NCBI GenBank assembly: GCA_016790575.1 | Contig: JAEUOU010000036.1 | Location: 1 to 64,000 of the forward strand | Reading direction: 5' to 3' | DNA from: Burkholderiaceae bacterium | GTDB taxonomy: Bacteria; Pseudomonadota; Gammaproteobacteria; Burkholderiales; Burkholderiaceae_C | DNA length: 64,000 bases | Shown: piece after piece, positions 25,972 through 38,499 of the stretch | How the letters are laid out: every line of letters begins with the position of its first letter | How positions within the stretch are numbered: position 1 is the stretch's first letter | The notes under the pieces: model-generated | The model's input: the letters and a program-made list of their open reading frames with translations, nothing else | Told to the model about the DNA's origin: nothing | Database searches by the model: none | Program-made: the position numbers and the translations under genes

Positions 25972-27450
25972 TCAGAGGGCCTCACCCAGTGCCTCGCGCA
26001 ATTGCCGCAGCATGCGGCCCATGCGGCGGTGGACGCGGTCTTCGTGCCGCGCCAACACCCGGTCCAGCCCCGAGCCGGCGGCGGGCGCGAGGCGTTCGCG
26101 GGCCAGGCACAGGTCGTTGAAGTGGCCCAGCACCGATTGCGCCCGCACCAGCACCGGCATCCAGCGGGCGAGCGCTCGGGCCCGGCGCGGACTCACCAGG
26201 GCACCGAGCATGTCGAGGGCGTAACGGGCCTTTTTGACCTCGATACGCAACGCGTGCAAGCTTGGCGCGTCATGCGGGCGAACCGCCGCCAGGCTGCGCA
26301 CCAGCCGCTGGCGCCGGCCCTCAAGGCGCTCGCGGGCGAAGCGGCGCAGCCGCCGCTCCGACGCCGGCAGCCGGCTGTCGGGCAGTTCACCCAAAGCCTG
26401 CCCGAATGCCAGCAACGGGCCGGCAACTGAAGTGGGTTCCGCGAGGCGGCGCAACAACAGGCGGCGTGCGGCGGCATCGGCCCGCACCAGGCGGGCGGGC
26501 CAGGTGGCGCCGGACTCCGCCAGCAGCGGCCAGACCTCCAGCGCTTGGACATCGGCATCCCGCACCGGTCCCAGCCAGGCGCCGAGTGTGCGCCACTGGG
26601 CCGTCCAGTGCTGCACCCATGCCGGGTCCAGCGCCGGCGCGAACACGCGCAGGGCTGCCCGCAGCCGCCGCAGTGCCACCCGGGCCTGATGCACCAGTTC
26701 CGGGTCCTGGACACCGGCATGCAGTGCATGCAGGTTGCTTTGCAGCGCGGCCAGCGACGGCTGGGCCACGCTGACAAAAGCGGCCACCGGCGTGTCACCG
26801 TGCGCGGCGACTGCGCCGGCGGGTGTCGCTGTCTGGTCGGGACTCTGGGCCAGCGCATAGGCCCGCTCGGCCTTGCTGGTTGCGCAGGGGAACAGGGGCG
26901 CCGCACTCAGCAAGGCCCGGGCTGTCTGGTGCAATGCGTCGGGCGGCCCATCGAGCAGTTCGAGCTCCAGTTCCAGCAAGGGGTGTGCCACAGGCCGGCC
27001 GGCGGTTCCGGTGCAGATTTCACCCTCGTCCAGTGCGATTTCGACGGTGGCGCCGCCGTGGCGCACAGTCCAGGCATGGCGTTGGAAGTCGGTGCGAAAT
27101 ACGGGCCGCAGATCGGCTCGCCGCTGCGCGAGCCAGGCGGCCAGCTCGGTGTCATCGACCAGGGCAGCAAAGTCGAATTCCCCGGCCCGCGTCGGCGCCT
27201 CCCATTCGCCCCGACGGGACAGGCCTCCGACCGTCGTTCCCGCCGTCTTTACCGTCAACAGCAAACGCCTGCCGGCGCGCCGCTCCCGAACCGCCATGCG
27301 GTTCTTGCGCAACTGGTGGTCGGATGTGTCGTAGTAGGTGTTCACCAGCCGCTGGCGAACGGGTTTTTCCGCTGCCAGCAGCGGATGCCCCAGCAGTCCG
27401 GGCAGATCGCTTGGGGCCAGCAGCAGCTTGAGTTCGGTTTCCCGGGCCAT
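25972..27450 (-). CDS. CYTH-CHAD domain protein (putative inorganic triphosphatase / polyphosphate-associated)
   Basis: 492 residues. N-terminal CYTH domain (~1-200) starts with the defining E-T-E-L-K-L (ExExK) motif and has basic strands such as R-L-V-N-T-Y-Y-D-T and V-R-E-R-R-A-G. The C-terminal CHAD domain (~220-492) is helical with conserved His/basic patches: H-Q-A-R-V-A-L-R-R-L-R and L-H-A-L-R-I-E-V-K-K-A-R-Y. CYTH enzymes cleave triphosphates; CHAD domains bind polyphosphate. The M-A-R-E-T-E start was chosen because the motif normally begins within the first residues; a start 87 bases upstream is possible. A polyphosphate:AMP phosphotransferase lies 7.5 kb further on. Confidence 0.88.
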   Translation of the reverse strand: MARETELKLLLAPSDLPGLLGHPLLAAEKPVRQRLVNTYYDTSDHQLRKNRMAVRERRAGRRLLLTVKTAGTTVGGLSRRGEWEAPTRAGEFDFAALVDDTELAAWLAQRRADLRPVFRTDFQRHAWTVRHGGATVEIALDEGEICTGTAGRPVAHPLLELELELLDGPPDALHQTARALLSAAPLFPCATSKAERAYALAQSPDQTATPAGAVAAHGDTPVAAFVSVAQPSLAALQSNLHALHAGVQDPELVHQARVALRRLRAALRVFAPALDPAWVQHWTAQWRTLGAWLGPVRDADVQALEVWPLLAESGATWPARLVRADAAARRLLLRRLAEPTSVAGPLLAFGQALGELPDSRLPASERRLRRFARERLEGRRQRLVRSLAAVRPHDAPSLHALRIEVKKARYALDMLGALVSPRRARALARWMPVLVRAQSVLGHFNDLCLARERLAPAAGSGLDRVLARHEDRVHRRMGRMLRQLREALGEAL

Positions 27451-27511
27451 GGTGTTGTGCAAGGTCGGATGCGGTGCGGCGAGTCTGCCTGTTGCCACGC
27501 AAAAAAGCCAG

Positions 27512-32317: not shown

Positions 32318-33355
32318 TCAGTCCGCCACCGGCGCCTGCCCCAGCACCTCCCGCGCATACGCAAACAGCGACGGCAGGCCGCCGGTGTGCAGGAACAGCA
32401 CCTTCTCGCCCGGTTGGAAGTGCCCCTGGCGCGCCAGGCCGATCAGGCCGGCCATGATCTTGCCGGTGTAGACCGGGTCCAGCGGAATGGCCTCGGTGCG
32501 GGCCAGCAGTTGCACCGCCTCCACCATCTTCGCGTTCGGCACCGAGTATTTGGGCTGCCAGAAGCCGCCGACACAGGTCACGTCTTCCGGTGTGACGCTC
32601 AGGCCCAGCCCCAGCAGGTCGGCCACGGCCTGGGCTTCCTTGATCACCAGCGGCTGCTGGTCGGCCGGGTCGCGGCTGACGCCGATGCCCACGATGGGCA
32701 CGTCGATGTGGTTGCCCAGAAAACCCGCCACCAGCCCGCCGTGGGTGCCGGAGCTGCCGCTGCCCACCACCAGCCGGTCGAAGCGCAGGCCCTGGTCGAA
32801 AAACTGCTGCTGCATCTCCTGCGCACAGGCCACATAGCCCAGCCCGCCCACCGCGTTCGAGCCGCCGCCCGGAATGATGTAGCCCTTGCGGCCCTGCGCG
32901 GCCAGTTCGTCGGCCACCTGCTGCATCGCGGGCGCCATCGGGCTGCCGCCCGGCACCACGGTGATCGCCTCCACCCCCAGCAGTCGGAACATGAAGTGGT
33001 TGCCGCTGCCGTGTTCGTCATAGCTGCCGGCCACGCGCTCTTCGATGACAAAGCGGCACTGCAGCCCTTCCTTCACGGCCGCCGCCAGCGTGATGCGGCA
33101 GTGGTTGGACTGCGGTGCGCCGCAGGTGATCAGCGTGTCCGCGCCCTGCGCCAGCGCGTCGGCCACCAGGAATTCGAGCTTGCGGGTCTTGTTGCCGCCG
33201 GGGAACAGCCCCAGCATGTCGTCACGCTTGATCCACACCTCCGGCCCGACGCCACCGGGGCAGCTGGCCGCCAACGCGGCCGAAAAGCGCGGCATCGGTT
33301 CGATGGGCGTGGTAAACGGGGTGTAGCGGCGGCGGGGAAAACGGGAAAGGTCCAT
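32318..33355 (-). CDS. PLP-dependent D-cysteine desulfhydrase / ACC-deaminase family
   Basis: 345 residues of the tryptophan-synthase-beta fold type II PLP family. Start [12 protein letters not shown] lysine in [19 protein letters not shown] substrate loop; phosphate cup [10 protein letters not shown]-terminal H-T-G-G-L-P-S-L-F. Releases sulfide, ammonia and pyruvate from D-cysteine. Closely related L-cysteate sulfo-lyase (releases sulfite) and ACC deaminase share this architecture, so the substrate is not settled. A longer frame would add 20 residues, but the M-D-L-S-R-F start matches the family. Ends near the convergent mmsA. Confidence 0.82.
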
Positions 33356-33451
33356 GGCGGCAAGGTCTCCTGAAGAAGGGTTGTGTAGCCTGACAGAAAT
33401 CGGACCTGCTTGCACGCGGGCCCGGCATCCGGACCGGCGGACGGGCCCGCC

Positions 33452-34954
33452 TCACGCCCCCAGCGAAAAGAAATGCCGGATGCGTTGCAGCAGGTCGCTG
33501 GCGCCGGTGTGGCCGGCTTCGGGAGAGGGTGTGGCGGATTCGGCCTGGCGCCGGCGCATGATGTCCGACACCTCCTGCGCGATGTCCGGGCGGCTTTGCA
33601 GCACCATCGCAAAGCCCGCTTTGTCCAGCCGGTAGCAGTCCACCGCCGTGGTGGCCACCACCGTGGCCTGTCGGGGCTCGCCGGTCAGCATGCCCATTTC
33701 GCCGAAACAGTCGCCGGCGCGCAGCACCGCCAGCGGCTGGCGGCCGGCGGCGGATTCGTGCAGAACCTGCGCTTCACCTTTGACAATCAGGTACAGCCAG
33801 TGGGCCACCGCGCCCTGGCGCGTCATGGTGTCGCCGGCGGCAAACGGCGCGTGCACCAGATGGGCCGCCAGCGCCTGCTGCTCGGCGGTCGACAGGCCGG
33901 CAAACAGCGCGGTCTGGGCAATGGCGGCCAGGCGGCGCTGCAGCTCGCGCGCTTCCTGCGCGGCGTGCCAGCTTTCGTTCTCCTTGATCATGCGCTGCTC
34001 CTGCTGCGGCACGCCCAGGCGGATGCCCGCACGCGCCAGTGCCGCCAGCGCATGTTGGCGCACCGCCGAATCGGTGGGATCGTCCCGGGCCGGGTCGTCC
34101 AGCCAGTAGCGCAGGCTGTATCGGGCCCAGCCGTAGCCGAGCGCCAGCAGCACCACGGTGGGCGCCGGCTGCCGGCGCACATGGGCGATGTCGGCGTCCG
34201 CCAGCACCTGTTGCAGCACGGCGATTACCTCCGCCGGGTCGGCCTGCAATTCCAGATCGAACTCGACCGAGCGCCGCCAGGCCGGCTGGCCGTCTTCGGC
34301 CGGGCGCACGATGGCAAAGCGGTTCTTCATCAGCCAGGCGTTGGGTACCATGATTGACTCGCCGCGCGGCGTGGCCAGCTCGGTCACCCGCCAGCGCACG
34401 TCCACCACACGTCCGCTCACGCCATCGTCCACCCGCACCCAGTCGCCCACCCGCAGCGAGTTGTCCAGCTGCAGTGACACGCCGCCCAGCACATTGCCCA
34501 GCGTGTCCTGCATCGCAAAAGCCAGCACCGCGGTGATCAGCGCCGAGGTGGTGAACAGCTGCGAGGCCTCCAGCCCCGACGCGCGCAGCCACAGCAGCAG
34601 CACCAGCACGGACAGCCCGGCCACCGTGAGGTCCTGCGCAATGCGGGGCGCCGGCAAGCGCAGCAGTGGCAATATGCCGCCGAACAGCACCGTGCCGGCG
34701 ATCTGCACCGCCGCCATGCCCAAGGCCAGCGTTGCAACCGTGCGCAGCGCCGGGGCCGTGGTGGTGGCCTCGCCCCACCAGGCGAGTGCGGCGAGCGCCA
34801 GCACCGCCAGTACCAGCAGGCCCCAGGCGACGCCCAGTACCCGCCGCGGGCCTCGGCGCGCCAGCCGGAAGCCCAGCGCGACCGCCGCCAGCGCCAGGGC
34901 GATGTGGGCCAGCGTCGCCAGCGGCAGCGTCAGCAGTGAGGCCGCCGGATTCAC
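33452..34954 (-). CDS. MscS-type mechanosensitive channel with C-terminal cyclic-nucleotide-binding domain
   Basis: 500 residues. Residues ~1-160: about four to five hydrophobic helices. Residues ~160-270: MscS pore/beta domain, with M-Q-D-T-L-G-N-V-L-G-G and L-D-N-S-L-R-V-G-D-W-V plus the P-R-G-E-S-I-M-V-P-N segment. Residues ~365-470: CRP-like cNMP-binding domain with phosphate cassette F-G-E-M-G-M-L-T-G-E-P-R-Q-A-T-V retaining Glu and Arg. The GTG start overlaps the stop of the polyphosphate:AMP phosphotransferase as GTGA, so translation is coupled. Probably a membrane channel gated by tension and/or nucleotide ligand. Confidence 0.88.
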   Translation of the reverse strand: MNPAASLLTLPLATLAHIALALAAVALGFRLARRGPRRVLGVAWGLLVLAVLALAALAWWGEATTTAPALRTVATLALGMAAVQIAGTVLFGGILPLLRLPAPRIAQDLTVAGLSVLVLLLWLRASGLEASQLFTTSALITAVLAFAMQDTLGNVLGGVSLQLDNSLRVGDWVRVDDGVSGRVVDVRWRVTELATPRGESIMVPNAWLMKNRFAIVRPAEDGQPAWRRSVEFDLELQADPAEVIAVLQQVLADADIAHVRRQPAPTVVLLALGYGWARYSLRYWLDDPARDDPTDSAVRQHALAALARAGIRLGVPQQEQRMIKENESWHAAQEARELQRRLAAIAQTALFAGLSTAEQQALAAHLVHAPFAAGDTMTRQGAVAHWLYLIVKGEAQVLHESAAGRQPLAVLRAGDCFGEMGMLTGEPRQATVVATTAVDCYRLDKAGFAMVLQSRPDIAQEVSDIMRRRQAESATPSPEAGHTGASDLLQRIRHFFSLGA

Positions 34955-36462
34955 CGTTTGGCCTTGCGGGGCGGAGCAGCCACACCCTCCAGCGCGGCCT
35001 CCAGCCGCTCGCACAGGTGGGTCAGCACCTCGATGCGGGAGAACAGCTTGTCGTTGCTGGCCACAATGTGCCAGGGAGCGACGTCGGTGGAAGTGCGGTC
35101 CACCATGTCGCCCACGGCGCGTTCGTATTGCGGCCATTTTTCGCGGTTGCGCCAGTCTTCGTCGGTGATCTTGAAGTTCTTGTGGGGTGTGTCCTTGCGT
35201 TCCTGGAAGCGGCGCAATTGCTCTTCCGGCGATATGGCCATCCAGAACTTCACCACCACCGCGCCGGCCTGGGCGAGCTGTTCCTCGAAGGCGTTGATCT
35301 CGTCGTAGGCGCGCATCCAGTCGGCTTCACCGCAAAAGCCCTCGACCCGCTCGACCAGCACACGGCCGTACCAGGAGCGGTCGAAGATCACCGCGTGGCC
35401 GTGACGCGGAATGTGCCGCCAGAAGCGCCACAGGTAGGGTTGGGCGCGCTCTTCCTCGCTGGGCGCCGCCACCGGCACCACCCGATAAAAGCGCGAGTCG
35501 AGTGCATGGGTGATGCGGCGGATGGTGCTGCCCTTGCCGGCCGCGTCCATGCCTTCGAACACCAGCACCACCGAGCGGTCGCGCATGCGCGGGTCACGGG
35601 TCAGACCGTTCAGCCGCGCCTGCAGTGTCTCCAGCTGCCGGTCATAGGTCTTCTCCTTGAGCGCGCGGCTGTAGTCGAAGGACGACAGCAGCGAACGGTT
35701 GTCCAGTGGCGGTGGCGACAACGCAGCCACACCGGTACGCGCCGGGGCCAGTCCGCCCAGACGCTGCGTGATGCCGTCCAGAATGTATTGCCCCACCGTC
35801 AGCGACCGGTAGGCGGCGTCCGCACCTTCCACCACCAGCCAGGGCGCGTCGCCGGTGCTGGTTCGGCGCAACGCCTGCTCGCACACCTTGACGAAGCCGT
35901 CATAGTGCTTGAGGCGTTCCCAGTCGCCAGGGGTGACCCGCCAGGCGGTCTTGGGGTCGGACTCCAGCGTCTTGAAGCGTTGCTTCGCTGCCTTCTTGGA
36001 CAGGTGAAACCACAGCTTGATGACCAGCGCCCCTTCGGCCACCAGCATGCGCTCGAACTGGCGGATGGCGCCGAGGCGGCGATCGAAGGTCGCCTTCTTT
36101 TCGGTCCCCATCACATGGGCCAGGATGGGGTCGGTATACCAGGACCCGAACAGGATGCCGATCTTGCCTTTGGGCGGCAACACTTGCCAGAAGCGCCACA
36201 TGTCCGGGCGCTGGTGCTCTTCCGGCCCCATCGGGCCGAACGCTTCGGTGCGGATGTGGCGGGGGTCCATCCATTCATTGAGCAGGTTGACCGTCTCGCC
36301 CTTGCCGGCGCCATCCACGCCATTGACCAGGATGATCACCGGAAAGCTCGCGTTTTCCAGCAGCGCGTACTGCGCCTTGAGCAGGGCCTCGCGCAGCAGG
36401 GGTTCGCGGGCCTTGTATTCCTTGCGCGCGATGGTGTGACCGATTTCGGCGGATTCGAACAT
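34951..36462 (-). CDS. pap: Polyphosphate:AMP phosphotransferase (double-domain PPK2)
   Basis: 503 residues made of two PPK2 domains in tandem. The N-terminal domain has Walker A G-V-D-G-A-G-K-G (48-55), the C-terminal domain G-M-D-A-A-G-K-G (304-311) followed by D-R-S-W-Y-G-R lid-type residues. In the N-domain the corresponding lid is F-G-S-W-Y-T-D, so it is probably not catalytic, as in known class II PPK2/PAP enzymes. The enzyme phosphorylates AMP to ADP using polyphosphate. The downstream channel with a nucleotide-binding domain is translated from an overlapping start. Confidence 0.92.
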   Translation of the reverse strand: MFESAEIGHTIARKEYKAREPLLREALLKAQYALLENASFPVIILVNGVDGAGKGETVNLLNEWMDPRHIRTEAFGPMGPEEHQRPDMWRFWQVLPPKGKIGILFGSWYTDPILAHVMGTEKKATFDRRLGAIRQFERMLVAEGALVIKLWFHLSKKAAKQRFKTLESDPKTAWRVTPGDWERLKHYDGFVKVCEQALRRTSTGDAPWLVVEGADAAYRSLTVGQYILDGITQRLGGLAPARTGVAALSPPPLDNRSLLSSFDYSRALKEKTYDRQLETLQARLNGLTRDPRMRDRSVVLVFEGMDAAGKGSTIRRITHALDSRFYRVVPVAAPSEEERAQPYLWRFWRHIPRHGHAVIFDRSWYGRVLVERVEGFCGEADWMRAYDEINAFEEQLAQAGAVVVKFWMAISPEEQLRRFQERKDTPHKNFKITDEDWRNREKWPQYERAVGDMVDRTSTDVAPWHIVASNDKLFSRIEVLTHLCERLEAALEGVAAPPRKAKR

Positions 36463-36744
36463 GACAGCAATCTCCTGACTCCGTGGGGATCAGTCCATCT
36501 TAGAACGGTGACACACCGCTGGCTAGACGCAGGTCAAGCCGTGTGCGCCCCATGGCCGGCCCCGTCCTGCCGCCCTCCGAGGGCCCGGCGACTGTGGCTT
36601 TCCTGCAACGGCTTGTCGACTTTCGCCCCACCCGGACGAACAGGGGATTGCGTATTGCGTAGCGATTGTGTTTGGGGTCACGCAACGAATCACAATCATC
36701 GGTCTATACTTCATTAAAGAAGTACAAAGTACTAAAAATAATTC
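36463..36744. other. 282-bp intergenic region between divergent genes
   Basis: Separates the PAP gene (minus) and the 7TM/GGDEF gene (plus). The right 100 bp become clearly AT-rich, with TATACT at 36705-36710 as a possible -10 box for the 7TM gene and an inverted ACTTC-ATTAAA-GAAGT just after it; no good -35 was found. No gene, element copy or RNA is evident. Confidence 0.5.
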
Positions 36745-38499
36745 ATGGTGAAATTTCACGGTCGAAACTCGCTGCTGCGGTGGCTGGGCATGTTCACGGC
36801 CGCGCTGGTGCTGGGAGGCCTGGGCTGGACCATGATGGCCGGATCGGGCGCCATGGGTCAGCACGGCCGACTGGATTTCATTGTGGACAGCCGTGGCGCC
36901 ATGGACCGCCCCCCGGCGGTCGACTCGCCCCAATGGCAGACGGCCGGTGTCATGGTGCCGGTGCCCACGGCACCGGGGCAGCTGTGGCTGCGCTGGAGCG
37001 CTCCGCCCGTGCCGGCCGCGGGCGTTGACTACGCCTTCAGTCTCGATTTCGCCGGGATTTCCCGCTTGCAGGTGTGGGAGGCGTCACCCCAGGGCCTGGT
37101 GCCCACCGAGCGGGCGGGCGCCAGCTATCCGCGTCGACCAACGGATTTGCCCGGGCGCATTCCCGTCGTGCGGATATTTGCCGAGGCCACCCCGACCGTG
37201 GTGGTTCTCAGTGCCCAATCCAAACTGCCGCTGGAGCTGCGCTGGCGTGCGGAGCCGGTGGTGGACTACCAGCGCTGGCTGCAAAGTGATGCGTACGCCA
37301 TGGGCCTGCTGGTCGGGCTCAGCCTGCTGTCCTTGTGGCTGGTGGCCTTGCTCGGCGATATCCGTTGGGATCGGGTGCTGGCGTCGGCCCTGGCGTTGAC
37401 CTCGGCGGCGTTCTGTTTCCAGCTGGTCACCCTCGGCCTGGCCCAAGAACTTCTGTGGCCCCAACACCCGGGGCTGACCGACCTGGCGCAGACCGTGTCG
37501 GTCGCGGCGCTGTATCTGGCGCTGCTGTGGCTGCTGGTGACCGTGACGGATGAGCACCCCCGCAGCCGGGCCAATTCGCTGGCGCTGTGGGCGATGATGG
37601 TGGCGTCGGTGATCGGTCTGGGCGTCGCCCATCTGTTTGGCGCGGAAGCGGCCAGTCGCACCGGCGATGGCCTGTTTGCCGTGATTATGGCCCTGGCCAT
37701 CTGGACGCTGGTGGCATCGGCCCGCCGCGGCAACCGCCACAGCGCGGCGGTGGGCTGGTCGCTGGTGCCCGCCTTGGTCGGCGGCACCATCCAGGTGCTG
37801 CGGGAAAGTGGTGTGGTCGTCCACGCCCACTGGATCATGGCGTATGCCACCCAGATCGGCGCGATCGTTACCGTGCCGCTGATGTGGACCGTCATCGCCC
37901 GCCGCGCCCGCGACCTGCGCGACGTCGCCATGCAGGCTGCCGGGGGCCAGCAGACCGACCCGCTGACCGGCCTGGTCCATGAGCGGGTCGCCCGCCTGCG
38001 CCTGGATCGCCTGGTCAGCCGCTGCAAACGCTTCAATCACCAGGGTGGACTGCTGATGATCAGCCTGCACAACCTGGACGACATCCAGGCCGAGCGCGGC
38101 CGGCAGGTGGCCGAAACCGCGCTGCTGCTGGCGGCGTCGCGGGTGCGATCCATTGTCGATTCCTGCGACACGGCGGCGCGCTGGGCGGGCACCCGTTTTG
38201 TGGTGCTGATCGAAGGCCCGATCAACGAAGACAAGCTCATCGAGATCGCCACCCGGGTCATCGCCCACGGTCTGCGCCGCGGCAACGAAATGACCATCGG
38301 CTCACTGCTGCGTTTTCAGGTGGCCGGCTCGCTGGTGACCGGCACGGAAACCGATACCGCCCTGTTGCTGCGCCGTGCCGGCGAGGCACTGGATTACATG
38401 CACGCCCACCCGGAGCGCAAGGCCATCCGCATCCTCAAGACCACAGCGGATCTCGCATCGCAGACCGGGCCTTTCGACCCGGTCGCCACCAACTACTGA
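36745..38499 (+). CDS. 7TM-DISM receptor-like protein with degenerate GGDEF domain
   Basis: 584 residues. An N-terminal membrane helix (~11-33), a periplasmic beta-rich 7TMR-DISM-type sensor domain (~45-175), seven hydrophobic helices (~183-390), a linker, then a GGDEF-like domain (~402-570) starting with D-P-L-T-G-L. In active diguanylate cyclases the signature is GGDEF; here the same place (481-485) is A-G-T-R-F, and the metal-binding strand reads L-M-I-S-L-H-N-L-D-D instead of a D-x-D-x-F form. It is therefore predicted to be catalytically dead, acting as a signal-transducing or GTP/c-di-GMP-binding module. It stands alone, between the PAP gene and a hydrolase gene. Confidence 0.82.
   Translation: MVKFHGRNSLLRWLGMFTAALVLGGLGWTMMAGSGAMGQHGRLDFIVDSRGAMDRPPAVDSPQWQTAGVMVPVPTAPGQLWLRWSAPPVPAAGVDYAFSLDFAGISRLQVWEASPQGLVPTERAGASYPRRPTDLPGRIPVVRIFAEATPTVVVLSAQSKLPLELRWRAEPVVDYQRWLQSDAYAMGLLVGLSLLSLWLVALLGDIRWDRVLASALALTSAAFCFQLVTLGLAQELLWPQHPGLTDLAQTVSVAALYLALLWLLVTVTDEHPRSRANSLALWAMMVASVIGLGVAHLFGAEAASRTGDGLFAVIMALAIWTLVASARRGNRHSAAVGWSLVPALVGGTIQVLRESGVVVHAHWIMAYATQIGAIVTVPLMWTVIARRARDLRDVAMQAAGGQQTDPLTGLVHERVARLRLDRLVSRCKRFNHQGGLLMISLHNLDDIQAERGRQVAETALLLAASRVRSIVDSCDTAARWAGTRFVVLIEGPINEDKLIEIATRVIAHGLRRGNEMTIGSLLRFQVAGSLVTGTETDTALLLRRAGEALDYMHAHPERKAIRILKTTADLASQTGPFDPVATNY

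Follow-up and report, generated by a model that had tools for sequence, protein, structure and literature searches.

The stretch of DNA analysed here (the window, 64,000 nucleotides) carries on its minus strand a gene for a polyphosphate:AMP phosphotransferase (PAP) and, directly downstream of it, a gene for an MscS-type channel with a C-terminal cyclic-nucleotide-binding domain (cNBD). The features that matter for the analysis are the following:

36463..36744, no strand assigned: intergenic stretch between the PAP gene and a divergent GGDEF-type gene, placed from the gene positions and presumed to hold a putative operon promoter
34951..36462, minus strand: PAP gene, two-domain enzyme of the PPK2 family, 503 aa (TIGR03708 and 3czp matches)
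36298..36321, minus strand: Walker A motif GVDGAGKG of the N-terminal PPK2 domain of PAP, from the sequence
35530..35553, minus strand: Walker A motif GMDAAGKG of the C-terminal, presumed catalytic PPK2 domain of PAP, from the sequence
35362..35385, minus strand: FDRSWYGR motif of the C-terminal PPK2 domain of PAP, from the sequence
34951..34954, minus strand: GTGA overlap of the PAP stop codon TGA (CGG-TGA) with the channel start codon GTG (GTG-AAT)
33452..34954, minus strand: channel gene, MscS superfamily with a C-terminal cNBD (bCNG architecture), 500 aa, GTG start (Pfam, AlphaFold2 and MscK/MscS/YnaI matches)
34466..34567, minus strand: predicted pore-lining helix, residues 130-163, TTSALITAVLAFAMQDTLGNVLGG... 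(helix of the model, pLDDT 57-74 in part, and invariant columns)
34316..34507, minus strand: MscS beta-domain (PF00924), by Pfam
33593..33844, minus strand: cNBD (PF00027), residues 371-454, by Pfam and a structural match with Z 18.4
33659..33706, minus strand: phosphate-binding cassette FGEMGMLTGEPRQATV with Glu419 and Arg428, both invariant in 103/103 channels
33467..33502, minus strand: C-terminal helix ending in Phe-Phe (residues 495-496) after a variable linker; the two Phe are invariant, and the model helix (H485-495) is of low confidence
25972..27462, minus strand: CYTH-CHAD gene (PF05235, 136 bits; PF01928, 87 bits)

Both the PAP and the channel open reading frames were ranked as coding by a codon model whose training set consisted of homologues of the pair. 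Neighbouring genes were delimited with the codon model as well, which replaced the clustering of raw open reading frames because antisense frames made the latter too noisy. The original prediction held that the two genes overlap by GTGA, and the overlap is indeed found at 34951-34954 of the minus strand. We infer that PAP and the channel are co-expressed as one transcript. Junctions were classed by the nearest candidate start of each pair (n = 23 pairs in the PAP-then-channel order, the window included; all starts are predicted). A 4-base GTGA or ATGA overlap was present in six of the 23 (the window, L051, L055, L056, L059 and L065) and a TGATG-type junction in one (L102), while the channel start lay 2-28 bases downstream of PAP in 15 pairs and 65 bases downstream in one (L052). 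As many bacterial operons have 4-base overlaps, this one is weak evidence by itself; it is the recurrence of PAP-channel adjacency, and not the overlap, that exceeds chance.

The PAP product scores 724 bits with the TIGR03708 equivalog model (cut-off 547.65) over residues 2-491, which span the two PPK2 domains, and 420.7 with NF050016, the other model named polyphosphate:AMP phosphotransferase, whose cut-off of 800 it does not reach. Its best solved relative is 3czp, presumably a Pseudomonas protein, which matches across residues 1-491 and, like PAP, consists of two fused PPK2 domains. As can be seen from the alignment, FGSWYTD stands in the N-terminal domain at the position of FDRSWYGR (3czp has FGNWYSQ there); because of this replacement, the N-terminal PPK2 domain is probably the non-catalytic half of the enzyme. 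Judging from the function of its family, PAP should make ADP from AMP and polyphosphate.

The channel scores above the Pfam cut-offs with PF00924 (53 bits, cut-off 20.2) and PF00027 (71 bits). The PF00924 match lies beside the pore helix, as is expected of the MscS superfamily, and the order of domains, with the cNBD placed C-terminal to an MscS-type channel part, is that of bCNG channels both by Pfam and in the model. The AlphaFold2 single-chain model (mean pLDDT 84.7) consists, from the N to the C terminus, of five long helices, a beta and an alpha/beta domain, a linker helix and the cNBD, and ends in a short helix. The five long N-terminal helices are taken as membrane helices and the beta and alpha/beta domains are read as the MscS cage. 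The top Foldseek matches of the model are MscK, MscS and a YnaI-MscS chimera, with whole-chain rmsd values of 17-20, which are probably so large due to domain shifts. When compared by VIA-align 2, the modelled cNBD matched the ligand-bound cNBDs of MlotiK1 (Z 18.4, rmsd 2.4, 139 residues) and PKA RI-alpha (Z 18.4, rmsd 2.0, 139 residues). The channel may be gated by membrane tension. The Phe-Phe ending is kept in all 103 aligned channels.

Gly418, Glu419, Gly425 and Arg428 of the predicted nucleotide pocket are likewise invariant in the alignment (103/103). The 80 named loci in it were fetched partly via a pattern containing FGEMG, which favours Glu419; the other 23 rows, fetched without this pattern, have each of the four residues in 23/23. 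The pocket thus looks selected. The conserved Glu and Arg form the pair that, in cyclic-nucleotide sites, grips the cyclic phosphate together with the 2'-OH of the ribose; they would hold cyclic nucleotides and not AMP or ADP. The cNBD may thus bind a cyclic nucleotide, and the earlier description of an intact-looking pocket is borne out by the invariant Glu419 and Arg428 and by the model match to ligand-bound domains. Residue 429, which follows Arg428, is Gln in the window; in other channels Arg, Ser, Gly, His, Thr and Ala occur at this place, which in known cAMP and cGMP sites is occupied by a small residue. This position was considered as a mark of channels linked to PAP and rejected, given that unlinked channels of the main clade (see below) also have Arg (8/25), Gly or Gln; it follows phylogeny more than linkage.

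To see how often the two genes are paired, we examined the best 80 related channel loci of named genomes, which were ranked by likeness to an alignment with linked members and are therefore biased towards the kin of the window. PAP is the immediate neighbour of the channel in 23 of these 80 loci and the remaining 57 are unpaired; the order is PAP-channel in 22 of the paired loci and channel-PAP in one (L071). Duplicate copies of loci were left out before counting (L130, for example, is a copy of L052). Contig ends cut 39 of the 80 loci (12/23 linked and 27/57 unlinked), and L063, L079, L081 and L126, whose contigs end too soon upstream of the channel for a PAP gene to be visible, are still counted among the 57. 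The pair is carried by Ramlibacter, Caenimonas, Rhodoferax, Rhodocyclaceae MAGs, one Rubrivivax MAG and one Nevskia MAG, with Ramlibacter lithotrophicus, Ramlibacter albus and Caenimonas koreensis as named isolates.

Three samples of genomes were searched in addition. Among 300 genomes of the order, a channel match (E of 1e-20 or better) was found in 50 and a PAP match (1e-60) in 114; exclusion of three weak channel matches (E of 1e-23 to 1e-27) left 47 channel genomes, 40 of which have PAP and seven of which lack it. The two genes are immediate same-strand neighbours in four of the 40 (G000, G284, G073 and G175) and unlinked in 36; in G277 a further predicted gene separates them, at a distance of about 2 kb. 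At the level of genera PAP is present in 24/29 channel genera of this sample versus 37/111 others (Fisher p 1.7e-6, with kinship ignored); since linked and unlinked sets are phylogenetically clumped, p-values of this kind are too small. Among 299 genomes of the phylum, two have the channel at E 1e-40, one of them being the window's own genome, and 23, that genome included, have PAP at 1e-100. Finally, 120 genomes of the window's own family contain four channels and 11 PAPs; both are present in two genomes and adjacent in both of these, and one of the channel genomes without PAP is 65% complete. Co-occurrence within the family was considered as support and set aside, there being too few genomes to lean on. 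Linkage of the channel to PAP is a minority arrangement, and the pairing is no local accident.

The tree results, headed INDEPENDENCE, comprise a channel tree and a PAP tree; both are quick trees, and the partial PAP of L074 was left out of the latter. In the channel tree (103 rows, 24 of them linked) 22 linked channels fall within one clade of 47 rows, and the channels of L117 and L121 sit among unlinked, mostly Rhodocyclaceae channels. An AU test on 54 of the 103 channel rows rejected a single group made of L117/L121 and the main clade (p 1.4e-8), the L117/L121 group having been named after inspection of the tree. In the PAP tree a clade of 33 rows holds 20 of the 23 linked rows together with 13 unlinked PAPs, and on the PAP data alone the AU test fails to keep L117/L121 apart from the main clade (p 0.357). 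A third independent origin at L071, whose gene order is inverted, was also considered: its PAP lies outside the main clade in the quick tree, but the AU test on the PAP data preferred it inside and did not reject its union with that clade (p 0.778), and this candidate was dropped. Because the AU test on channel data keeps L117/L121 out of the main clade, two channel lineages paired with PAP are supported. The linkage thus spans several families and two channel lineages and is not confined to a few close relatives.

The linked loci also differ from the unlinked ones in their neighbours. Genes for PPK1, PPX, PhoU or CYTH-CHAD proteins were found within 7 kb in 12/23 linked loci versus 0/57 unlinked loci, a contrast whose significance is overstated because the loci are related to one another and for which the families were chosen after inspection of linked loci. 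The neighbours were found by tblastn (at least 70 bits), and nine of 15 were checked by Pfam. PPK1 lies beside the pair in L052 and L054, PPX in L052 and L056, PhoU in L054 and L056, and CYTH-CHAD in nine of the 23 (L051, L061, L062, L066, L072, L075, L076, L077 and L094); in L054 ppk1 and the channel gene are convergent, and phoU lies beyond ppk1. Of 11 PAPs that have no channel immediately next to them, three (L038, L048 and L049) also have CHAD or SixA genes nearby, and it may therefore be PAP, not the channel, that the polyphosphate neighbours accompany. The CYTH-CHAD gene of the window is 6 kb away from the pair and possibly belongs to a polyphosphate neighbourhood outside the operon; the PPK1 gene of the genome was located on a different contig. 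Seven linked loci have a CHASE2 gene nearby, which was considered as a cyclase and rejected, since Pfam analysis of the one in L061, the only one tested, revealed CHASE2 and a SpoIIE phosphatase.

The genomic context supports a functional link between PAP and the channel. Our preferred reading, which we put forward tentatively and which may well prove wrong, is that of an operon for mobilising polyphosphate, in which the channel is a release valve gated by tension and tuned by a cyclic nucleotide. Long polyphosphate chains are an osmotically almost inert store. PAP would transfer phosphate from polyphosphate to AMP to yield ADP, and the breakdown of the polymer would free phosphate plus the K+ and Mg2+ that neutralise it. 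Membrane tension would then open the channel at a threshold that a cyclic nucleotide sets; this would probably be cAMP, signalling starvation. The channel would act as the valve through which the freed phosphate and cations leave. The polyphosphate neighbours of linked loci (12/23 versus 0/57), the adjacency in 23/80 loci, the two lineages and the invariant pocket all argue for this, as do the short junctions, the co-occurrence of the two genes in the order sample and the match of the modelled cNBD to those of MlotiK1 and PKA. The window's own genome has six class III cyclase-type matches over the cut-off (88 down to 22 bits, one of them strong), so a cyclic nucleotide could be made there, and a cyclase lies next to PAP in L117 and L121. 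The reading is weakened by the 57/80 unlinked channels, by the CHAD or SixA genes near PAPs that lack an adjacent channel, by cyclase-like genes near two unlinked channels (L106 and L118), by the absence of PAP from 7/47 channel genomes of the order sample and its presence in only 2/4 of those in the window's family, by the location of PPK1 on another contig, and by residue 429, which is Gln here and often Arg, whereas known cAMP sites have a small one. The broader proposition, that bacteria couple polyphosphate breakdown to such a channel so that the freed phosphate and counter-ions exit before the cell bursts, we consider rather unlikely as it stands.

The same counts can be read differently. 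The channel, an ordinary bCNG-type osmotic valve, and PAP may both be general stress genes that share a promoter for convenience and are mechanistically unlinked, which we regard as a serious, if doubtful, possibility. Most channel homologues are unlinked to PAP (57/80 loci; 36/40 genomes), some channel genomes lack PAP altogether, and short overlaps such as the one seen here are common. The window's own genome has five MscS-type beta-domains, i.e., four besides that of the pair, so this channel is not the only candidate osmotic valve of the genome. What this reading accounts for poorly is that two channel lineages are paired with PAP and that other polyphosphate genes are repeatedly present, and only at linked loci.

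Alternatively, cyclic nucleotides alone could gate the channel, with membrane tension contributing little or nothing; PAP would then recharge AMP left from cAMP that phosphodiesterase has destroyed, and the operon would serve as a module for cAMP signalling. The pocket is canonical, bCNG channels are named for nucleotide gating, L117 and L121 have a gene for a class III cyclase with FHA domain that is oriented divergently to PAP, and a cNMP-binding EAL protein lies beside the pair in L071. However, a cyclase lies beside PAP in just two of the 23 linked loci, cyclase-like genes are also found near two of the 57 unlinked channels (L106 and L118), the usual company of the pair is polyphosphate genes, and the turnover of cAMP should yield very little AMP. 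We therefore consider this explanation improbable.

That the domain senses AMP, ADP or another non-cyclic nucleotide and so reads adenylate charge directly is very improbable: PAP does consume AMP, and many linked channels have a non-standard Gln, Arg or His after the phosphate-binding Arg, but Glu419 and Arg428, with the ligand contacts presumed above, are invariant in 103/103 channels and position 429 tracks phylogeny more than linkage. The original prediction had connected adenylate or polyphosphate status with gating. Of this, the genomic tie of the channel type to polyphosphate genes stands, and gating by AMP/ADP status falls outside the supported part; since the invariant Glu and Arg are the pair known for holding cyclic nucleotides, an adenylate link would more likely run via cAMP or polyphosphate turnover.

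To our knowledge, MscS-type channels with nucleotide-binding domains have no established physiological role or metabolic partner. Among the titles listed in searches of open-access literature, none dealt with a PAP-channel pair. The recurrent operon offers a concrete polyphosphate-enzyme partner for MscS-type bCNG channels, which would be a physiological partner if the proposed link is true. The pair hints at a tie between the use of phosphate stores and salt and water balance, and a link of phosphate storage to cell volume, if true, would be important to those soil and waste-water bacteria that store polyphosphate.

Both kinds of protein are known, PAP as such and the channel, by architecture, as the bCNG branch of the MscS superfamily; here this channel architecture sits in a recurrent polyphosphate operon. 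The pore helix, beta-domain and cage of the channel are shared with E. coli MscS, MscK and YnaI, of which YnaI presumably also has five membrane helices, as in our model; unlike the channel, none of the three is known to have a cNBD. MlotiK1 and SthK have the same cNBD fold and phosphate-binding cassette as the channel, and we take them to be tetrameric K+ channels of the voltage-gated type and not MscS-type. The bCNG channels, with which the names Caldwell 2010, Malcolm 2012 and Ss-bCNGa are said to be associated, reportedly belong to the MscS superfamily and carry a C-terminal cNBD. The channel of the pair resembles them, by architecture alone, in its MscS-type membrane part and C-terminal cNBD, and differs from them in its operon with PAP and its mostly betaproteobacterial subfamily, and possibly in its conserved C-terminal Phe-Phe helix.

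At the C-terminal end of the channel, the MscS-family protein with a cyclic-nucleotide-binding domain, a short helix is predicted, and the Phe-Phe that it contains is invariant (103/103 channels). Its position, and those of genes near the pair that the channel forms with PAP (the polyphosphate:AMP phosphotransferase gene), are as follows:

window 33467-33502, predicted short C-terminal helix of the channel with Phe-Phe, after a variable linker
window 32318-33415, neighbour of the pair, above the cut-off for the D-cysteate sulfo-lyase CuyA model
window 36745-38499, 7TMR-DISM protein with a GGDEF domain, divergent from PAP

The CuyA match scored 464 bits against a cut-off of 450. As read from the sequence, the signature of the GGDEF domain is AGTRF, on account of which this domain is probably catalytically dead.

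At four related channel loci (L065, L077, L100 and L114), the record titles, which name Acidobacteria, Lysobacter and Klebsiella MAGs, do not match the kinship seen in the channel tree; these mismatches are probably binning or labelling errors.

Genes that accompany the pair at related loci are:

L061:10127-12109, CHASE2 and SpoIIE phosphatase gene (Pfam, run on the L061 copy)
L071:3179-4357, cNMP-binding and EAL fusion protein, directly downstream of an inverted channel-PAP pair
L117:4236-5123, FHA-domain-containing nucleotide cyclase of class III, its gene divergent from PAP and the channel
L121:4210-5112, the same type of cyclase with FHA domain, likewise divergent from the pair

The CHASE2/SpoIIE-type gene of L061 has homologues in six related loci, and its place 3′ of the pair is kept within one clade. 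The fusion protein at L071 may possibly be a point where cyclic-mononucleotide and c-di-GMP signals meet.
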